Assembly (NCBI RefSeq): GCF_003990045.1
Contig: NZ_RZGZ01000002.1
Location: 558,001 to 622,000 of the forward strand
Reading direction: 5' to 3'
Source: Labedella endophytica
Lineage (GTDB): Bacteria; Actinomycetota; Actinomycetes; Actinomycetales; Microbacteriaceae
Length of the DNA: 64,000 nucleotides
Each line of letters starts with the position of its first letter. The first letter of the stretch is position 1. Of this stretch, positions 8,312-41,598 are shown in pieces. The position numbers and the translations under genes are program-made. Below the pieces are notes generated by a model. That model did not search any database, had not been told where the DNA came from, and saw only the letters and a program-made list of their open reading frames with translations.

Positions 8312-8438
8312 GCTCCTCCTGAGCAGTCGAGGATCCGACGCGGGAGCATCGGCCTGATCGAGTCGGCTCCCGTGCTTTCGCAGATCAACGCGGATGACAC
8401 TCGCGGATCGTCGAACCCCCACGGGAGGCGATGAGCCC

Positions 8439-8444
8439 ATTCTA
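8439..8444 (-). promoter_or_regulatory. Candidate -10 box TAGAAT for helicase gene
   Basis: TAGAAT on the minus strand is the only good -10 match in the 190-bp gap between the esterase and helicase genes. It would give a 5' leader of about 120 nt. No clear -35 box is visible. Confidence 0.3.
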
Positions 8445-8501
8445 CGGCACGGCGACCGCTCCCGCGCACGGGGTTCCGGGCGGCCGCCCGCCGGGCTCCG
8501 G

Positions 8502-9263
8502 TCAGGCCGGAGGCGTGATCTCGGTCCAGGCGCCGTACTTCGCGGCACGGCCGTCGCCGGAGGAACGTCCCGTGAGCCGGCGCTGGATCCACGGCACGAC
8601 GTGCTCGCGGTAGTACGCGAGCTCGTCGCGGATGTTCTTCCCGGATGCGCCCCCTGGAGCGTCGATGACCCAGTGCGACGGGTGCTCGTAGCCGAGCGTC
8701 GCGAGTACGCGGGCCGCGACCCGCTGGTGTCCGATCGGACCGAGGTGCAGTCGGTCGTGCGACCAGTAGGCGGAGCGCGCGAGCTCGGAATCCGACCAGT
8801 TGTCGGCGAAGAGCACTCCCCGGTCCGCGGCGAGCGCGGCGACCCGTTCGTTGAGGGCGTCTCCCTTGGCCTCGATGCGCGCGCGCATCGGCAGCCCGCC
8901 CGTGGGGTTCGCCCCGCTCAGGAGCACGAGCTGCGCTCCCGATTCGGCCACACGGTCGAGCACGGCGCCGATGCGCGCGAGCAGGAGCGTGGGATCGGAC
9001 TTCGGGCGCAGCATGTCGTTCCCGCCGCCGTTGAACGTCACGAGCGTGGGCCCGAGGGCGATCGCGGGTTCGAGCTGCTGATCGATGATGGGGCCGAGAA
9101 GTCGGCCGCGGATCGCGAGGTTCGCGTAGAGGACACGGGCACCCGAGGCGGCGAGGCCCTCCGCGACGAGGTCGGCCCAGCCGCGCACGCTCCCGTCGGG
9201 CCGATCGTCCCCCACGCCCTCCGTGAAGCTGTCCCCGAGCGCGACGTACCTGATCTCGTCCAT
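8502..9263 (-). CDS. SGNH/GDSL-family hydrolase (esterase)
   Basis: Probable esterase or acyl hydrolase, 253 aa. The SGNH blocks are visible: GDS with nucleophile Ser12, block III GGGND with Asn82, and block V DRLH with Asp170 and His173. No signal peptide is present, so it is likely cytoplasmic. ATG 9263 is chosen; a GTG immediately before it (9266) is equally readable. The ribosome-binding site TGAGGTG belongs to the last copy of a 41-bp tandem repeat that forms the whole upstream region, so the start sits inside the repeat edge. The substrate is unknown. Confidence 0.87.
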   Translation of the reverse strand: MDEIRYVALGDSFTEGVGDDRPDGSVRGWADLVAEGLAASGARVLYANLAIRGRLLGPIIDQQLEPAIALGPTLVTFNGGGNDMLRPKSDPTLLLARIGAVLDRVAESGAQLVLLSGANPTGGLPMRARIEAKGDALNERVAALAADRGVLFADNWSDSELARSAYWSHDRLHLGPIGHQRVAARVLATLGYEHPSHWVIDAPGGASGKNIRDELAYYREHVVPWIQRRLTGRSSGDGRAAKYGAWTEITPPA

Positions 9264-9405
9264 CACCTCAGTCTCGCACCGTCAGCACGGGTCAGCGGCA
9301 CGAGCATCTCAGGCTCACACCGTTGGAACGCGTCGGCGGCATCGGCACCTCAGTCTCGCACCGTCAGCACAGGTCGGCGGCACGAGCATCTCAGGCTCAC
9401 ACCGT
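9264..9405 (-). repeat. 41-bp minisatellite in the 5' region of the SGNH gene
   Basis: On the minus strand a unit beginning ACGGTGYGAG-M-CTGAGRTG starts at 9405, 9364, 9323 and 9282, exactly 41 nt apart. Alternate copies are more alike, so a strict 60-bp match with 82-bp period is also seen (9264-9323 against 9346-9405). The fourth copy runs into the ATG of the esterase and provides its Shine-Dalgarno-like TGAGGTG. A degraded extra copy may lie just upstream (9406-9420). Confidence 0.85.
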
Positions 9406-9426
9406 CCCGTCAGCGCCACCGCGGAC

Positions 9427-9822
9427 TCAGTCCTCGTAGCCGACGAGCCAGCGCACGCCGTAGCGGTCGCGGACCTGGCCGTCGGTCGCTCCCCACGGGC
9501 GCTTCTGCAGGGGATCGAGCACGGTGCCGCCGTCGGACAGTCGCTCGAACCAGCGGGTCAGGGTCTCCCCGTCGGCCGTGCCGAGGAGGGTCACGCTGAC
9601 GCCGGTCATCGAGACCGGCTCCTCGTCGCCCGCCGTGTCGGAGGCGAACAGGCCGACCGGTCCGCTCAGGACCCCGTGGGCGATCGCGTCGGCCGGGCCG
9701 TCGGTGCGCCCGAACTCGTCGAACGTGTGCAGCTCGACCTCGGCGTCGAAGGCGCGCGCATAGAACCCCAGTGCCTCGGCGGCGGTGCCGGGGAAGGACA
9801 GGTAGAGGCCGATGCCGCTCAC
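9427..9822 (-). CDS. VOC-superfamily protein (PhnB-like)
   Basis: A 131-aa protein of the glyoxalase/bleomycin-resistance fold, closest in pattern to PhnB-like 3-demethylubiquinone methyltransferase-like proteins: FPGTAAEALGFYARAF at the N-terminus, PVSMTGVSVTLLGTADGETLTRWFERLSDGG in the middle and WGATDGQVRDRYGVRWLV at the end. These proteins form metal-containing dimers, but most lack an assigned reaction. The GTG start at 9822 overlaps by 4 nt (GTGA) the stop of a small upstream reading frame, consistent with translational coupling. The function is unknown beyond the fold. Confidence 0.85.
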   Translation of the reverse strand: MSGIGLYLSFPGTAAEALGFYARAFDAEVELHTFDEFGRTDGPADAIAHGVLSGPVGLFASDTAGDEEPVSMTGVSVTLLGTADGETLTRWFERLSDGGTVLDPLQKRPWGATDGQVRDRYGVRWLVGYED

Positions 9823-9977
9823 GAGGCGACCACCGGGGGCGTCGGCTGCGGCAGGAGGTCGACGAGCGGGTCGGCGAGGCGGTCGTCGCGCGACCCCGGC
9901 CGGGCGGACACTCGCACGTCGCGAGGCGACTCGGAGGCGGAAAAGCCGGGAATGCGCATGGCCGGTGGGTATCCCAT
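9819..9977 (-). CDS. Possible small protein coupled to the VOC gene
   Basis: A 52-residue reading frame beginning MGYPPAMRIPGFSASES and ending in a Pro-rich tail. It is not a family I recognise. Two points support it: its TGA overlaps the downstream GTG start as GTGA, the coupling pattern used throughout this window, and a TACACT -10 box (10014-10019, minus strand) would place a transcription start about 30 nt before ATG 9977. Against it, no Shine-Dalgarno site is visible and the residue composition (Arg, Pro, Ser) could arise by chance in GC-rich DNA. ATG 9959 is an alternative start. Confidence 0.35.
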   Translation of the reverse strand: MGYPPAMRIPGFSASESPRDVRVSARPGSRDDRLADPLVDLLPQPTPPVVAS

Positions 9978-10124
9978 CGTCGTCGATCGGTCGCGGTTCG
10001 CCCAGTGTACGCCGCGCTCAGTTCGATGGACGAGGGGTCTCCCGTTGGCAGGATCCCGTGGATGCATTCGGGGTGAGGGCGCAAGCCCCTCCCAGACGAT
10101 TCGTTCTCTCGCCACGATCGGAGC
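9978..10124. other. Intergenic region between divergent genes
   Basis: About 150 bp separating the VOC unit and the DUF3140 gene. It holds the TACACT box for the minus strand (10014-10019). For the plus strand I see only a weak CGGAGC ribosome-binding site just before ATG 10125. No repeat or hairpin of note is visible. Confidence 0.4.
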
Positions 10125-10466
10125 ATGAGCGATTCAGAGAAGAACGACGCAGACGACATCCGGCGCGAGTTCCACGAGGCGGTCAACATGACCGCCTCGG
10201 AGCTCTCCGACTGGCTCGAGACCGACGACTCGAAGAGCGTCGGCCAGAAGGACGACGGAGGGGAGTCGACCGGCCACAAGAGCGGCCGACGCATCGTCGA
10301 CCTCCTGCACACGAAGAAGGACGACCTGAGCGACGACGATCTCTCCCACATGAGGAAGGTCGTGGGGTACGTCTCCCGGCACACCGCCCAACGGCCGTCG
10401 GGCGACGTGTCCGACACCCCGTGGCGTTACTCCCTCATGAATTGGGGCCACGACCCCGTGAAATGA
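10125..10466 (+). CDS. DUF3140 family protein
   Basis: A 113-aa hydrophilic cytoplasmic protein matching DUF3140 over its full length. Seen features are EFHEAVNMTASELSDWLETDDSKSVGQ near the N-terminus, ESTGHKSGRRIVDLL in the middle, HMRKVVGYVSRHTAQRP, and the diagnostic C-terminal WRYSLMNWGHDP. The family occurs as short stand-alone proteins in bacteria and has no established biochemical role; some are found next to stress or DNA-binding genes. It is followed by a membrane protein on the same strand with a separate promoter. Confidence 0.88.
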   Translation: MSDSEKNDADDIRREFHEAVNMTASELSDWLETDDSKSVGQKDDGGESTGHKSGRRIVDLLHTKKDDLSDDDLSHMRKVVGYVSRHTAQRPSGDVSDTPWRYSLMNWGHDPVK

Positions 10467-10485
10467 GCCGGACCCGTCTCATCGC

Positions 10486-10516
10486 TACGCTGTCCTTCGT
10501 GGGGACAGGGACGTGA
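10486..10516 (+). promoter_or_regulatory. Leaderless five-codon upstream ORF before the membrane protein gene
   Basis: TACGCT (10486-10491) ends 7 nt before a GTG at 10499, the same geometry as the leaderless promoters in this window. That GTG opens a reading frame of five codons (MGTGT) whose TGA (10514-10516) overlaps the GTG start of the next gene at 10513. This would make the mini-ORF a translational entry point for the gene. The geometry is seen; function is inferred. Confidence 0.4.
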
Positions 10517-11601
10517 GCGCACAGCCGGATACGACGGCACTCACGGCGGCGGTCAGTCGGAGTGAGGTGAAGGACTTCCGCCGACGGGAGAAGTCGAACC
10601 GCCGCTGGTTCGACACCACGAACGTCTGGGTCATCGTGATCGTCGTGATCGCGGTCCTCGTCGGGGGCCTCCCGCTGATCCGTTTCGTCCTGGGATCGAC
10701 GGACGGTGATGCCGAGACGAATGCTCCGTCCGTCCCACTCGCGGTCGCCGGCATCGCCGGCCTGCTGATCGTTTTGGTGCGCCTGCACGGACGATCGGCC
10801 TGGGCCGCACGATTGCGACGATCCAGATTCGCCGAGGCGAACGGTTTGGTCTACGACGAGCCGGCCGACGTGGCCGAGTATCCGGGGGCCGCCTTCTCCG
10901 CCGGTCACAGTCAGTCGCGCGACGTGCGGTTCCGCTCTGTCGACGGACCGTACGCCGAGTTCGGAACGTACAGCTGGTCCGTCGGCAGCGGGAAAGGCAA
11001 ACGCAACTATCGGATCGGCTTCGCCGCGATGCGACTCGAGCAGCCGCTCCCCCACATGGTGCTCGACCTGCGCGACAACAACGGTTTCTTCGGAGTCGGC
11101 ATCATCCCGTTCCGTTTCGATCGCGACCAGGTCCTCTCGCTCGAGGGCGACTTCGATCGGTACTTCACGCTGTACTGCCCGAGCGACTACGAGCGTGATG
11201 CGCTCTACGTCTTCACTCCGGACGTGATGGCGCTCCTCATCGACGAGTCGGACCAGTTCGATGTGGAGATCGTCGACGACTGGGTCTTCTTCTATTCCAC
11301 CCGCGCGTTCGACGTGGACGAACCGGCCACCTGGCAGCGACTGTTCCGCATCCGCGACACCATCGTCGCGAAGCTGCATCGTGTGTCCGGCCGATACCGC
11401 GACGACCGCGTCCCCGGCCAGGACGCGCCCGTGCTGGCTCCGATCACGGCCTCGGCGACGACCGCTCGCCGTGGTTCAGGCCGCGTCAGGGTGGTGGCGC
11501 CGGCCGGCCGGCGCTTGCGGTCGAGCGCGCCGTGGCTGGCGGTCCTCGTCCTCGCCGGGATCGTCGCCATCGTCTGGTTCGTCCCGCAGCTCCTGATGTG
11601 A
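10513..11601 (+). CDS. Membrane protein, DUF3137-like
   Basis: A 362-aa protein with three predicted membrane segments (about residues 39-58, 75-92 and 336-355) and a large soluble middle domain (about 100-300) containing repeated Phe/Asp/Tyr-rich strands such as NNGFFGVGIIPFRFDRDQ. The arrangement of two N-terminal helices followed by a soluble domain resembles DUF3137 proteins, but I hold that family call loosely. GTG 10513 is the start, overlapping the stop of a five-codon upstream frame. The function is unknown. It is convergent with copA. Confidence 0.75.
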   Translation: MSAQPDTTALTAAVSRSEVKDFRRREKSNRRWFDTTNVWVIVIVVIAVLVGGLPLIRFVLGSTDGDAETNAPSVPLAVAGIAGLLIVLVRLHGRSAWAARLRRSRFAEANGLVYDEPADVAEYPGAAFSAGHSQSRDVRFRSVDGPYAEFGTYSWSVGSGKGKRNYRIGFAAMRLEQPLPHMVLDLRDNNGFFGVGIIPFRFDRDQVLSLEGDFDRYFTLYCPSDYERDALYVFTPDVMALLIDESDQFDVEIVDDWVFFYSTRAFDVDEPATWQRLFRIRDTIVAKLHRVSGRYRDDRVPGQDAPVLAPITASATTARRGSGRVRVVAPAGRRLRSSAPWLAVLVLAGIVAIVWFVPQLLM

Positions 11602-26843: not shown

Positions 26844-29654
26844 CTAGCCGCGCGGCTTCTCCTTCATCTCGATCGTTTCGATCTCGTCACCGAGCTGGAT
26901 GTCGTTGAACTTGCCGAGACCGATACCGGCCTCGTAGTCCGTACGCACCTCGGTGACATCGTCCTTGAAACGACGCAGCGACTCGATCGCGAGGTTGTCC
27001 CCCACGACGACACCCTCGCGGATGACGCGCGCCTTGGCGTTTCGCGTGATCGTTCCCGACCGCACGATGACACCGGCGATGTTGCCGAACTTGGAGGACC
27101 GGAAGATCTCGCGGATTTCCGCGACACCCGACTGGACCTCTTCGTACTCCGGCTTGAGCATTCCGGTGAGGCTCGACTCGACGTCGTCGAGGGCGTTGTA
27201 GATGACCGAGTAGAACCGGATGTCCACACCCTCACGAGCGGCGCGCTCGCGGGCCTTCGGATCGGGGCGCACGTTGAACCCGATGATGATCGCATTGTCG
27301 ATCGTCGCGAGGTTCACGTCCGACTCCGTCACCGCACCGACACCGCGGTGGATGATGCGCAGCTGGACCGAGTCGTCGACCTCGATCTTGAGGAGCGACT
27401 CCTCGAGCGCCTCGACGGCACCCGACACGTCGCCCTTGATGATGAGGTTGAGCGACTCGACCTTGCCCTCTTCGAGAGCACGGGTGAAGTCCTCGAGGCT
27501 GATGCGCTTGCGAGCCTTGGCGAGCGACGCATTGCGCTCGGCCGCTTCGCGCTTCTCGGCGATCTGACGGGCGGTACGGTCCTCCTCGGTGACGAGGAAG
27601 GTGTCACCCGCTCGCGGAACGCTCGAGAGCCCCTGCACCTGGACGGGACGCGACGGGCCGGCCTCGAGGACCGTGTCGCCGTTCTCGTCCATCATGGCGC
27701 GGACGCGTCCGTACGCCGTTCCGGCGACGATCGCGTCGCCGACCCGGAGCGTTCCGGACTGGATGAGCACCGTGGCGACCGAACCGCGACCCTTGTCGAG
27801 CTTGGCCTCGATGGCGACACCGCGAGCGTCCTTGTCCGGGTTCGCACGCATGTCGAGTCCCGCGTCGGCCGTGAGGAGCACGGCGTCGAGCAGCTGCGGG
27901 ATACCGATGTTGTTGAGCGCGGACACATCGACGAACATGACGTCTCCACCGAACTCCTCGGCGACGAGACCGTACTCGGTGAGCTGCTGGCGCACCTTGG
28001 ACGGGTTCGCACCCGCCTTGTCGATCTTGTTCACCGCGACCACGATCGGGACGTTGGCGGCCTGGGCGTGGTTCAACGCCTCGACCGTCTGCGGCATGAT
28101 GCCGTCGTCCGCCGCGACCACGAGGATCGCGATGTCCGTGACCTGGGCACCACGAGCACGCATGGCGGTGAACGCCTCGTGACCCGGGGTGTCGATGAAG
28201 GTGATGGCGCGGTCGATGCCCTCGTGCTCGGCGTGCACCTGGTACGCACCGATGTGCTGCGTGATGCCACCTGCCTCGCCGGCGACGACGTTGGCGTTGC
28301 GGATCGCGTCGAGGAGGCGCGTCTTACCGTGGTCGACGTGACCCATGACCGTGACCACGGGGGGCCGCGCCACGAGGTCCTCGTCGCTCTCGCCCTCGAG
28401 CTCGGCATCGATGTCGATGTCGAAGCCCTCGAGGAGCTCGCGGTCCTCGTCCTCCGGGGAGACCATCTGGATCTTGTAGCCGAGCTCGTCGCCGAGCACG
28501 CCGAACGTGGACTCGTCGAGCGACTCCGTGGCCGTCGCCATCTCACCGAGGTGGAACAGCACGGTCACGAGGTTGCCGGGGCTCGCATCGATCTTGTCGG
28601 CGAAGTCAGCGATCGAGGCGCCGCGGCGCAGACGCACGATGGTGGTGCCGTCGCCGCGCGGGACCTGCACACCGCCGATCGACGGGGCCTCCCGCATCTC
28701 GAATTCTTGCCTCTTCGTCCGCTTCGACTTGCGCGACTTGCTCTTGCCGCCACCGCGACCGAAGGCACCAGCGGTACCACCGCCGGGTCCACGGCCACGA
28801 CCGCCGCCGCCACCCGGACGACCGGCGAAACCGCCGGCCGGACGCTGGGCGAAGCCACCGGCCGCACCCGGAGCGCCACCGGCACCGCCGGGACGCTGGA
28901 AACCACCGGGACCACCGGGGCGACCGCCGCCGGCACCACCGGGACGCTGGAAGCCACCGCCGCCGGGACGACCGCCGGCACCGGCGGGACGAGGCCCACC
29001 GGGACGCGGGGTACCGGGACGCGGCGCCTGCGGGCGCGGGATGTTCGAGGGATTCGGCGTCGCGGCCGGGCGCTGGCCCATGCCCTGAGCGCTCGCGAAC
29101 GGGTTGTTACCCGGACGCGGGCCGGCGGGACGGGATCCCATGCCCTGCGAGCTCGAGAAGGGGTTGTTACCGGGGCGCGGGGCTCCCGGACGCGGGCCGC
29201 CGGGGCTCGCCGCGGGGGCGGAACCGTCGGTCGGCGCCGGAGCGGCGGCCTCGGCTGCGGGGGCCTCGTCGGCCTTCGCAGCGGGAGCTGCCGGGGCGGC
29301 GGGGGCCGCCGGAGCGGCGGGCGCCTTCTCCTCGGCGGCCGCGGGGGCCGGCGCGGGGGCAGGTGCCGGAGCCGGCGTGGCCTTGGGGGCCGGAGCCGGT
29401 CCCGGGCGGTTCGCCGACGGGCGGCTCGCGCCGGGGCGAGCCGCCGTCGATGCCGCGGGCTTGGATGCGTCGGCCGCAGGCGCGGCTGCGCCGGCGGCTT
29501 CGAGGGCCGCACGCAGCTTGCGTGCGACGGGGGGTTCAATGCTCGAGGACGGTCCCTTGACGAATTCGCCCAATTCCTTGAGCTTCGCGAGGGCGACCTT
29601 GCTGTCTACGCCGAGTTCGGATGCGATCTCGTGTACGCGTGGTTTGGCAGCCAC
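26844..29654 (-). CDS. infB: Translation initiation factor IF-2
   Basis: GTPase that brings initiator tRNA to the 30S subunit. It is 936 aa. Order: IF2-N subdomain (residues 1-50, [23 protein letters not shown]), a long Ala/Pro then Gly/Arg/Pro-rich low-complexity linker (about 55-310) with repeats such as FQRPGGAGG and RPGNNPF, a second IF2-N-like part, the G domain (G1 GHVDHGKT 438-445, G3 DTPGHEAF, G4 NKID), then domains II-IV. GTG 29654 has an AGGAGA site. The linker is unusually glycine-rich. Cotranscribed with ylxR and nusA. Confidence 0.98.
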
Positions 29655-29983: not shown

Positions 29984-30310
29984 CCTACACCTCCTCCGGG
30001 GGACAGCCCGATTCGGGTCCGCGTGCTCCCGGCATGCTCACGGCGAACGCCGTCCGGTTTGTACGTTTCCTCACCGAGGAGCGAGGCCGCCTATTCGTCG
30101 AGGATCGAATCCGGCTGGATGCGGCACTCACGGACATTCGTCGAAGCGCTCGCACGCCCCCCGACGAATGCGCGAAGATCGACATCCAGCCGGACCATTC
30201 CTATTCGTCGAGGATCGAATCCGGCTGGATGCGGTACTCACGGACATTCGTCGAAGCGCTCGCACGCCCCCCGACGGATGCGCGAAGATCGACATCCAGC
30301 CGGACCATTC
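29984..30310. other. Expanded nusA-ylxR spacer
   Basis: This 327-bp stretch has no gene I can support. 30091-30310 is two 110-bp repeat units made from copies of the nusA 3' end. 29984-30090 is unique and holds the ylxR ribosome-binding site (AGGAGG before 29983). Short reading frames cross the repeats on both strands, but they are by-products of duplicated nusA codons and have no own start signals. Confidence 0.8.
30091..30310 (-). repeat. Tandem 110-bp repeats derived from the nusA 3' end
   Basis: Units 30091-30200 and 30201-30310 differ only at two positions (30125/30235 and 30167/30277). Each unit begins with a 31-bp direct copy of the last nusA codons and stop (compare 30311-30341), and ends with a 25-bp inverted copy of nusA 30330-30354 (at 30170-30194 and 30280-30304). 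Between these lies a 48-bp spacer containing a further ATTCGTCG/CGACGAAT inverted pair, perfect in unit 1 and with one mismatch in unit 2. The unit period (110) is not a multiple of three. Confidence 0.95.
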
Positions 30311-30354
30311 CTATTCGTCGAGGATCGAATCCGGCTGGATGTCGATCTTCGCGC
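30280..30354 (-). terminator. 25-bp hairpin enclosing the nusA stop codon
   Basis: Arms 30280-30304 and 30330-30354 are exactly complementary and enclose a 25-nt loop that contains the nusA TAG (30311-30313). One arm lies inside the nusA coding sequence. There is no U-tract. In mRNA it could act as a terminator, attenuator or 3' stabilising element between nusA and ylxR-infB. Confidence 0.6.
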
Positions 30355-31297
30355 CCGTCAGCTTCGCGGCGAGGCGGGCGTTCTGGCCCTCCTTGCCGAT
30401 CGCGAGCGAGAGCTGGTAGTCGGGCACGAGCGCCCGCACGGCCTTGATGCTCTGATCGAGCACGAACGTCGACGTCACCTTGGCCGGCGACAGCGCATTC
30501 CCCACGAACGTCGCAAGGTCGGGCGAGTAGTCGACGATGTCGATCTTCTCGGTGCCGAGCTCCTCGGTGACGGCGCGAACACGACGGCCCATCTCACCGA
30601 TGCAGGCGCCCTTCGCGTTGATGGCCGGGTCCGTGGCGCGCACGGCGATCTTCGTGCGGTGTCCGGCCTCGCGGGCGAGCGACACGATCTCCACGAGACC
30701 CGAGGCGATCTCGGGGACCTCGAGAGCGAAGAGCTTCCGGACGAGGGACGGGTGGGTGCGGGACACCGTGATCGACGGTCCTTTCATCCCCTTCGACACG
30801 CTCGTCACGTAGACGCGGATACGGGAGCCGTGCTTGTACTGCTCGCCCGGCACCTGCTCCTCCGGCGGCATGATGGCCTCGATCGTGCCGAGGTCGACGT
30901 GGATCATCTTCGGGTTCGGGCCCTGCTGGATGACGCCGGCGACGATGTCGCCCTCTCGCCCCTTGAACTCGCCGAGCACCGCGTCGTCCGCGATGTCGCG
31001 GAGACGCTGGTTGATGACCTGCTTCGCCGCGAAGGCGGCGATGCGTCCGAAGTCGTCCGGCAGGGTCTCCGATTCGCCGATGACGTTTCCGTCGTCGTCC
31101 TTCTCGGGGACAAGCACGGCGATGTGGCCGGTCTTGCGATCCAGGTGGACGCGAGCCTCGCTCGGGTCGCCGCCCGACTGCAGCTCGTTCTTCTGGTAGG
31201 CGGTCAGGATCGCCTGCTCGATGATGTGCACCAGTTCGTCGAACGGGATCTCCCGCTCGCGTTCCATCATCTTCAGGACAGTGAGATCGATGTCCAC
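30311..31297 (-). CDS. nusA: Transcription termination/antitermination protein NusA
   Basis: RNA polymerase elongation factor modulating pausing, termination and antitermination. It is 328 aa, the short actinobacterial form without the C-terminal acidic repeats of E. coli. Order: N-terminal polymerase-binding domain (1-110, MMEREREIPFDELVHIIEQA), S1 domain (about 115-190, GREGDIVAGVIQQG), two KH domains (about 200-320) with DPAINAKGACIGEMGRRV and LAIGKEGQNARLAAKLTGAKIDI. GTG 31297 has an ATGGAGG site 4 nt upstream. It begins the nusA-ylxR-infB-rbfA operon; rimP, the usual upstream partner, is not between proS and nusA. Confidence 0.97.
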   Translation of the reverse strand: MDIDLTVLKMMEREREIPFDELVHIIEQAILTAYQKNELQSGGDPSEARVHLDRKTGHIAVLVPEKDDDGNVIGESETLPDDFGRIAAFAAKQVINQRLRDIADDAVLGEFKGREGDIVAGVIQQGPNPKMIHVDLGTIEAIMPPEEQVPGEQYKHGSRIRVYVTSVSKGMKGPSITVSRTHPSLVRKLFALEVPEIASGLVEIVSLAREAGHRTKIAVRATDPAINAKGACIGEMGRRVRAVTEELGTEKIDIVDYSPDLATFVGNALSPAKVTSTFVLDQSIKAVRALVPDYQLSLAIGKEGQNARLAAKLTGAKIDIQPDSILDE

Positions 31298-38834: not shown

Positions 38835-39995
38835 TCAGTGGGCGCCGACGGAGACGGTGGGGGTGCCTGTCGATGCGTCGTCTGCGGGGATTTCCGCCGC
38901 GATCCGATTGGCCTCGCGGATGAGGGTCGCGACGATCTCCGACTCGGGGACGGTCGCGATGACCTCGCCCTTGACGAAGATCTGGCCCTTGCCGTTGCCC
39001 GAGGCGACACCGAGGTCGGCCTCGCGGGCCTCGCCCGGGCCGTTCACGACGCAGCCCATGACGGCGACCCGCAGCGGCACGGACATGCCCTCGAGTCCCG
39101 TCGTGACGTCCTCGGCGAGCGAGTAGACGTCCACCTGGGCGCGCCCGCAGCTCGGGCACGACACGATCTCGAGCTTGCGCTCACGGAGGTTGAGCGACTG
39201 GAGGATCTGGAGCCCCACCTTGACCTCTTCGACGGGAGGCGCGGAGAGGGAGACACGGATCGTGTCCCCGATGCCCTCCGCGAGGAGGATGCCGAAGGCC
39301 GTCGCACTCTTGATCGTGCCCTGGAAGGCCGGACCGGCCTCCGTGACACCGAGGTGCAGGGGCCAGTCGCCGCGCTCGGCGAGCAGGCGGTACGCCTTCA
39401 CCATCACGATGGGGTCGTTGTGCTTCACGGAGATCTTGAAGTCGTGGAAGTCGTGCTCCTCGAAGAGGCTCGCCTCCCACTGGGCGCTCTCGGCGAGCGC
39501 CTCGGGGGTCGCCTTGCCGTACTTCTGAAGGATGCGCGGATCGAGCGACCCCGCGTTCACGCCGATGCGGATACTCACGCCCGCGTCCTTCGCCGCCTTG
39601 GCGATCTCACCCACCCGGTCGTCGAACTTGCGGATGTTGCCCGGGTTCACGCGCACGGCGGCGCACCCGGCGTCGATCGCGGCGAAGACGTAGTTCGGCT
39701 GGAAGTGGATGTCCGCGATCACGGGGATCTGGCTCTTCTTCGCGATGATCGGGAGCGTCTCGGCGTCGTCGCGGGTCGGCACGGCGACGCGCACGATGTC
39801 GCAACCGGACGCGGTGAGCTCGGCGATCTGCTGGAGGGTCGCGTTGATGTCCGTCGTCGGCGTCGTGGTCATCGACTGCACGCTCACGGGGGCGTCGCCG
39901 CCCACGAGCACGCTTCCGACCTTGATCTGGCGCGACTTCCGACGGGGGGCGAGGACTTCGGGAACGCTCGGCATTCCCAGATTCACTGCGGGCAC
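38835..39995 (-). CDS. ispG: 4-hydroxy-3-methylbut-2-enyl diphosphate synthase (flavodoxin)
   Basis: Penultimate step of the MEP isoprenoid pathway, making HMBPP with a 4Fe-4S cluster. It is 386 aa with an N-terminal TIM barrel ([36 protein letters not shown]) and a C-terminal cluster domain with cysteine ligands Cys280 and Cys283 (SCPSCGR) and Cys315 ([11 protein letters not shown]); the glutamate in NGPGEA is the fourth ligand. GTG 39995 follows a TAGGAT -10 box by 6 nt. dxr of the same pathway lies 4 kb away; rseP is between them. Confidence 0.97.
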
Positions 39996-40085: not shown

Positions 40086-40215
40086 CGGCCGAACGCTGAG
40101 CGGACGGCCACACGCCGACCGGACGGCCGAACGCTGAGCGGACGGACGCTGACCGGACGGCCGGACGCCGACCGGACGGATCTGACCGGCCGCACGCCGC
40201 TCAGCCGGACGCGGC
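40086..40215. repeat. Degenerate 15-19-bp tandem repeat between rseP and ispG
   Basis: A run of units starting CGGACGG or CGGCCG: CGGACGGCCACACGCCGAC (40101-40119), CGGACGGCCGAACGCTGAG (40120-40138), CGGACGGACGCTGAC (40139-40153), CGGACGGCCGGACGCCGAC (40154-40172), CGGACGGATCTGAC (40173-40186), with weaker units on both sides. It fills most of the 220-bp spacer downstream of rseP. No gene is supported here. Confidence 0.75.
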
Positions 40216-41592
40216 TCAGCCGAACAGGTTGATCGGCTTGACGATGTCCGCGTAGATCAGCAGGAGGCTCATGGCGCCGAGCACGATCACGACGCCGAAG
40301 GTGAGGGGCATGAGCTTCGCCGAGTCGACCGGACCGGGGTCCGGCTTCCTGCGCAGCTTCGCGAACCAGCGGCGCACCGCCTCGAAGAGAGCCGTCAGGA
40401 TGTGTCCGCCGTCGAGCGGCAGCAGGGGGACGAGGTTGAAGACGAAGAGCATGGCGTTGAGCGAGGCGAGGATCCCGAGCATGGCCGAGGCCTTGCTCGC
40501 GATCGGGACCTCGTCGAGCGCGGCGACCTCGCCGGCGATCCGGCCGACTCCCACGACGCTCATGGGACCGTTCGGGTCGCGCTCCCCCGGGCCGAAGGCC
40601 GCGACGGCCGTGTCGACGAGTCGCTGCGGCAGGTTCACGATGACGTTCACGACGCCGCCGATGGCGTCGCCCACGGCGGGCAGGACCGCGGTGGCGGGCT
40701 GCTGGACCAGCTCCGACGTGGGCGAGATGCCCGCGAATCCGACGTCCTGCACGACCTCCTCACCGTCGCGCTCGACCGGCCGACCGTTCGCGTCGTACAC
40801 ATAACGCTCGGTCAGGAGCGGAGTGAGGGACACCGTGACGTCCGCGCCGTCCCGGTCGACGACGACCGAGAGGGGGTCTCCGGCCGAGTCGCGGATGACA
40901 GCGGACAGCTGCTCCCACGATGACATCGTCTCGCCGTCGATGCTCATGATCCGATCGCCCGGCTGCAGCCCGGCCGCGGCTCCCGGGGCCTGCGGGTCGC
41001 CGCTCTCGCACGTCGTGCGACCGGCGGTGGACGAGAGCGCGCACTCCGAGACGGCACTGAGGGTCGTCGTCGACTGCGCCGTCCCGATACCCATGAGGAG
41101 CACCGCGAAGAGCACGACCGACAGGATGAGGTTCATGACGGGGCCGCCGAGCATCACCACGATGCGCTTCCAGACGGGCAGCCGGTAGAAGGTGCGGTCC
41201 TCGTCGCCCGCACCGATCGTGTCGGCGCTCGCCTCCCGCGCGTCCTGCACGAGCGTGTCGAAGTATCGGGCGCGTCGCGCGGGCTCCTTCGACGTGGACA
41301 GCTGTTGGATGAAACCGGTGGTCGATTCGGTCGCTCTCTCGCCCGGCGCGGTGGGCGGGAACATCCCGATCATCGAGATGTAGCCACCGAGCGGGACCAT
41401 CTTCACCCCGTACTCGGTCTCACCCTTCTTCCGCGACCAGATCGTCTTGCCGAAACCGATCATGTACTGCGTGACGCGCACGCCGAAGATCTTCGCGGGA
41501 ACCAGGTGCCCGACCTCGTGCAGCCCGATGGACACGACGAGGCCCACGAGGATGATGAGCACGCCGAGGATGTACAGAAGGACCGATTCCAC
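40216..41592 (-). CDS. rseP: Site-2 protease (M50 zinc metalloprotease, RseP-like)
   Basis: Intramembrane protease that clips membrane-bound anti-sigma factors and signal peptides. It is 458 aa, with HEVGH (residues 25-29) in the first helix, a PDZ domain in the middle (about 165-290, GLQPGDRIMSIDG), the FNLVPLLPLDGGHI second zinc motif, and about four membrane segments. The start is set at GTG 41592 because TATCGT lies 6 nt upstream of it, the spacing used by other leaderless genes here; the longer GTG 41598 is possible. In many Actinobacteria rseP, ispG and dxr are neighbours, as here. Confidence 0.94.
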   Translation of the reverse strand: MESVLLYILGVLIILVGLVVSIGLHEVGHLVPAKIFGVRVTQYMIGFGKTIWSRKKGETEYGVKMVPLGGYISMIGMFPPTAPGERATESTTGFIQQLSTSKEPARRARYFDTLVQDAREASADTIGAGDEDRTFYRLPVWKRIVVMLGGPVMNLILSVVLFAVLLMGIGTAQSTTTLSAVSECALSSTAGRTTCESGDPQAPGAAAGLQPGDRIMSIDGETMSSWEQLSAVIRDSAGDPLSVVVDRDGADVTVSLTPLLTERYVYDANGRPVERDGEEVVQDVGFAGISPTSELVQQPATAVLPAVGDAIGGVVNVIVNLPQRLVDTAVAAFGPGERDPNGPMSVVGVGRIAGEVAALDEVPIASKASAMLGILASLNAMLFVFNLVPLLPLDGGHILTALFEAVRRWFAKLRRKPDPGPVDSAKLMPLTFGVVIVLGAMSLLLIYADIVKPINLFG

Positions 41593-41598
41593 GAGCAC

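Follow-up and report, generated by a model that had tools for sequence, protein, structure and literature searches.

Tandem repeats with units of 58, 57 and 54-56 bp are found at lpdA-glpD2, dop and cysG-efpA, respectively, in Mycobacterium tuberculosis (PMC12817950). The lpdA repeat stands 12 bp upstream of its gene, that of cysG 29 bp, and both genes are described as leaderless (PMC12817950). According to the same report, the number of units in these promoter tandem repeats (PTRs) varies between isolates and lineages. Variation within a culture, at 10^-2 to 10^-3 per chromosome, is described there for dop and lpdA and was not seen for cysG, while expression with four lpdA copies is put at 12.5 times that with a single copy (PMC12817950). 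Repeat number is elsewhere cited as linked to lpdA expression (PMC9213004), and the reported number of lpdA repeats is two in H37Rv and three in H37Ra (PMC2440308). Dose is apparently not the whole story at this gene, since the lpdA transcript of H37Ra, higher in culture, is given as lower in macrophages (PMC2440308).

Leaderless genes, which account on average for 19.2% in Actinobacteria, are described as carrying TANNNT some 12 bp upstream of the start (PMC3160421). For M. tuberculosis, 73% of primary starts are reported to have the same element 7-12 bp upstream, with no conserved -35 motif (PMC3898074).

In the fungus Aspergillus fumigatus, a promoter stretch of 34 or 46 bp is duplicated upstream of cyp51A (TR34/TR46) and the repeats hold transcription-factor sites. 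Promoter duplication is also known at pbp4 of Staphylococcus aureus. MIRUs, for their part, are a repeat family present at many loci. Those of senX3-regX3 in M. tuberculosis, of 77 and 53 bp, are reported to drive the downstream gene (PMC4213456).

The array described here, from a 64,000-nucleotide stretch of Labedella endophytica DNA (hereafter the window), looks closest to the M. tuberculosis PTRs of lpdA, dop and cysG. Such a repeat appears to be new in Microbacteriaceae: among the matches listed in literature searches, Labedella papers included, no title dealt with such an array in this family, and the print record may hold some. On the published descriptions, the likeness lies in an actinobacterial host, tandem units of 41-58 bp directly upstream of a gene and a unit number that differs between lineages. 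The Labedella case differs in that its unit, predicted -10 box included, reaches right up to the ATG, in that a difference in copy number is seen only between species, and in that it is known here from sequence alone. The senX3-regX3 MIRUs similarly form tandem units between two genes, but the Labedella array is confined to a single locus; cyp51A shares with it duplication upstream of one gene.

Structure and surroundings of the array

The features of the region are as follows.

8502-9263, minus strand: SGNH/GDSL hydrolase gene, ATG start, 253 amino acids (Pfam PF13472, E 1.1e-28)
9263-9307, minus strand: small upstream frame of 14 codons, its ATG in unit 3 and its TGA overlapping the hydrolase ATG (TGATG)
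9264-9282, minus strand: truncated repeat unit 4, 19 bp, predicted -10 box GAGACT at 9275-9270, 6 nt before the ATG
9283-9323, minus strand: repeat unit 3, 41 bp, -10-like GAGCCT at 9316-9311
9324-9364, minus strand: repeat unit 2, 41 bp, -10-like GAGACT at 9357-9352
9365-9405, minus strand: repeat unit 1, 41 bp, -10-like GAGCCT at 9398-9393
9427-9822, minus strand: VOC/glyoxalase-family gene (PF00903, E 1.3e-6), upstream in the same direction and bounding the array on its left

Between the VOC-family gene and the hydrolase ATG, the minus strand thus carries three complete units of 41 bp and a partial one of 19 bp. Reading of both strands and the TRF call (9267-9406, period 41, 3.4 copies, score 187) bear out the preliminary description as regards the period and the minus-strand starts at 9405, 9364, 9323 and 9282, at each of which ACGGTG forms the first bases of the unit. 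For comparison, the best TRF score in 300 dinucleotide shuffles of the surrounding 1001 bp was 62, and none of these had a period of 30 or more. Unit 4 ends at 9264, flush with the hydrolase ATG at 9263-9261. As had been claimed, the sequence immediately before the start codon does come from the array, and TGAGGTG adjoins the ATG.

Alternate units are the more alike, again as described: units 1 and 3 are identical at 39/41 positions, whereas neighbours (1-2 and 2-3) agree at 30/41. Truncated unit 4 matches unit 2 at 17/17 positions and units 1 and 3 at 14/17 each, and the array as a whole matches itself at 86/126 positions at a lag of 41 and at 65/85 at a lag of 82. The suggestion that growth proceeded by duplication of a two-unit block fares less evenly. 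Duplication of 82 bp at a time would account for the alternation; the 24 bp to the left of core 1, however, match those to the left of core 3 at 7 places only (24/41 identities minus the 17 core bases). The genome is assembled in 14 contigs, in which near-identical 82-bp blocks might have collapsed.

Each of the four cores reads TG-N-GAGMCT, so that TG, A2 and T6 are retained in every copy. In upstream copies 1 and 3 the box is altered to GAGCCT, and no start codon stands at the predicted +1 of any upstream copy.

The array sequence is present at one locus in the genome. When up to 2 mismatches were allowed, the 17-bp core pattern matched the genome four times in the array and four times elsewhere, compared with five matches for the reversed pattern. 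Within the window, a degenerate core at 3 mismatches gave four matches, all in the array and all exact; the same search produced at least four matches in 7 of 100 shuffles too, the core alone being not rare. No match to the 27-base unit pattern was obtained among viral contigs. A dispersed, MIRU-like repeat family was considered and rejected, given the single locus and core matches elsewhere that do not exceed those of the reversed pattern.

The hydrolase has a single, weak sequence relative in the PDB (5mal, E 8.5e-7), and no NCBIfam name was found for it. The 14-codon frame upstream of it is probably incidental. Also near the array is a DUF3140 gene (window 10125-10466), similar genes to which occur on Streptomyces, Paracoccus and Sphingomonas plasmid records.

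Comparison with other Labedella genomes

A genus search found three other Labedella genomes, one per species. In each of them the core stands once, immediately ahead of the same ATG, and there is no array, whereas the window has four cores. Core number does vary, as the preliminary description allowed for, and it does so between species. The nearest congener (G001) likewise has the VOC gene next to the hydrolase, with 43 bp from its stop to the hydrolase ATG rather than the 163 bp found here; the difference of 120 bp is close to three units.

GAGACT preceded by TGC lies at exactly the same place in all four Labedella. Identical columns among the four number 18/24 at -24 to -1, compared with 3/36 at -60 to -25, and 16 invariant columns form one run from -20 to -5. 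This run exceeds general similarity, since only 21/40 third codon positions are identical over the first 40 codons of the hydrolase. The sole conserved upstream block in the four species is the block that the array repeats.

Orthologues and the predicted -10 box

Orthologues were represented by the best 80 of 343 relatives, 54-84% identical and mostly from Leucobacter and Microbacterium. Among these, 70/80 have TANNNT, usually as TAGGCT or similar, placed 6 nt (62 cases) or 7 nt (8 cases) before an in-frame start. The ten misses among the best 80 comprise two Labedella loci, six sequences without such a box and two in which no start codon was found. A nearest-start rule, blind to the box, was applied to 81 rows (L087, which has no motif, left out; G001 and the window added) and gave a gap of 6 or 7 in 48/81 and of 15 or 16 in 21 more, with other gaps at 0-2 loci each. 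The gaps of 15 or 16 would fit a GTG codon lying in frame 9 nt into the gene. Judged by the placing of box and start, the orthologue layout is that of leaderless genes. Box position is like that published for such genes (PMC3160421, PMC3898074), with the difference that the four Labedella have G as its first base.

The window has GAGACT at the place of the orthologue -10 hexamer, with A2 and T6 kept and the first T not. In the host genome, open reading frames (ORFs) chosen by length and codon GC pattern show TANNNT before candidate starts at a gap of 6 in 37/270 and at a gap of 7 in 10/270; a fresh sample gave 25/245 and 10/245, respectively, and other gaps were represented by 0-6 ORFs in both samples. 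GANNNT has no clear peak at gap 6-7 in these samples. TGN-GANNNT at gap 6 was seen four times in the first sample (the hydrolase included) and once in the fresh one, a failure to repeat for which we do not claim GANNNT or TGN-GANNNT as a general -10 box of this genome. A scan of 8400-10600 for consensus sigma-70-type promoters found none. GAGACT is termed a predicted -10 box on the strength of its position in the orthologues and its conservation; the first T of the consensus is missing from it and GANNNT is not clearly enriched.

A probable promoter repeat of a leaderless gene

The array is best explained, with a probability that we put at roughly 55%, as a promoter tandem repeat of a leaderless hydrolase gene, the extra copies of which would tune transcription. 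RNA polymerase would recognise the -10 box 6 nt before the hydrolase ATG, and the transcript would begin at or beside the A of that codon. DNA ending at the start codon, core promoter included, would have been multiplied by slippage or unequal recombination in the lineage of the window, leaving three further core copies upstream, each with TG-N-GAGMCT. The likeliest function of these copies would be to offer polymerase additional weak sites, raising or tuning transcription, with expression depending on a copy number that the same slippage or recombination could change.

By this account what the repeat duplicates is most likely the core promoter and not a 5' UTR. The array had been taken to fill a transcribed leader, a view not supported by the leaderless layout of 70 of the best 80 of 343 orthologues: that layout, and the predicted -10 box held by the last unit, place the array upstream of the predicted transcription start. 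TGAGGTG would then be the stretch between the predicted -10 box and the start. A duplication that ends at a leaderless start codon carries the whole core promoter and has no leader to disturb, and the locus illustrates how a repeat adjoining a start codon invites a mistaken reading as leader sequence. Should the copies be active, tuning leaderless genes through the number of promoter copies would be an option for other actinobacteria as well, and not one confined to the tuberculosis bacterium.

Alternative explanations

The array may instead be a neutral minisatellite, slippage having multiplied DNA that chanced to abut the start codon; the final unit alone would then count, and the remaining ones would be without effect. 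We consider this almost as likely as a promoter repeat, if somewhat short of an even chance, because the box reads GAGCCT in copies 1 and 3, the upstream copies lack start codons at +1 and the five other arrays read in the genome are unlike this one. The array is, moreover, absent from the three congeners and from the other orthologous upstream regions examined: in the 400 bp upstream of each of 81 orthologues (the best 80 of 343 relatives plus G001), no array with a period of 30 or more reached a TRF score of 50, although shorter-period arrays were present in 9/81, the strongest being that of L063 (period 20, score 104). Neutrality is likewise favoured by the absence of dispersed copies, by the 11/41 places at which units 1 and 2 already differ and by further arrays of similar score, which the genome sample contains in both coding and non-coding DNA. 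Against it, the core is slightly better kept between neighbouring units (14/17) than the rest of the unit (16/24), a comparison of few sites.

In a stronger form of the promoter-repeat reading, the array would be a phase-variable promoter-dose switch, in which the count of complete extended -10 copies before the leaderless gene varies from cell to cell within a culture and hydrolase output scales with it. Copy-number tuning or phase variation of the hydrolase is possible by analogy with the M. tuberculosis promoter repeats; a switch of the kind just outlined we regard as unlikely. If real, such a switch would carry the promoter-repeat mechanism of M. tuberculosis over to Microbacteriaceae, the unit here stopping exactly where transcription and translation both begin.

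Considerably less probable is a transcribed leader with a Shine-Dalgarno site, in which copy number would change leader length or fold. Three of the four Labedella do have GAGG 2 nt before the ATG, and TGAGGTG had accordingly been put forward as a ribosome site. However, a spacing of 2 nt between GAGG and ATG is too short for a Shine-Dalgarno site, which counts against such a leader. The nearest congener (G001/L011) has GACG in place of GAGG, and on these two grounds GAGG is not a credible site; the orthologues, moreover, are laid out as leaderless. The leader structure that had been envisaged finds no support in RNA folding, the predicted fold being no better than those of shuffled sequences (z 0.28), and the window contains no Rfam match at gathering thresholds. 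A structured leader or riboswitch is accordingly rejected.

Translational coupling, of a kind known for mycobacterial MIRU repeats, would have transcripts from the VOC gene, which runs in the same direction, or from the upstream copies read through the 14-codon frame (9307 to 9263) and its TGATG overlap, and is the least probable of all, since 41 is not a multiple of 3 and every unit therefore shifts the frame, the frame's ATG sits in unit 3, which the congeners lack, and L040 has GCGATG and hence no overlap.

Other tandem repeats in the genome

Five further arrays of the genome were read, three of them chosen as lying upstream of an ORF. In none of the five is a -10 box repeated together with a start codon, so that promoter repeats of this type are not a habit of the genome. 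TANNNT was seen by eye in two of the five (L165 and window 40086-40189), in each case in the stretch that separates the array from the gene.

At window 40086-40189, three copies of a 34-bp repeat lie between the minus-strand ORFs 38835-39995 and 40216-41598; a leaderless-like TAGGAT 6 nt before a GTG follows about 90 bp downstream, outside the array. Elsewhere in the same genome, L165 3760-3840 (a 21-bp repeat) and L150 11788-11965 (a 96-bp repeat) are both placed just upstream of a plus-strand ORF, while L147 7069-7258, where two convergent ORFs face each other with their 3' ends, holds an imperfect duplication of 99 bp between them.

The window also contains a 110-bp tandem repeat (30090-30341; 2.3 copies, 98% identical) with inverted repeats inside it, situated at the 3' end of a nusA-like gene (30311-31297, minus strand; Pfam). 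The three congeners match parts of it only. Contig C13 of G002 begins inside a matching stretch, and an array may therefore break that assembly. Finally, repeats of 51 and 60 bp are found at 28874-29192, inside the gene for translation initiation factor IF-2 (26844-29654, minus strand).
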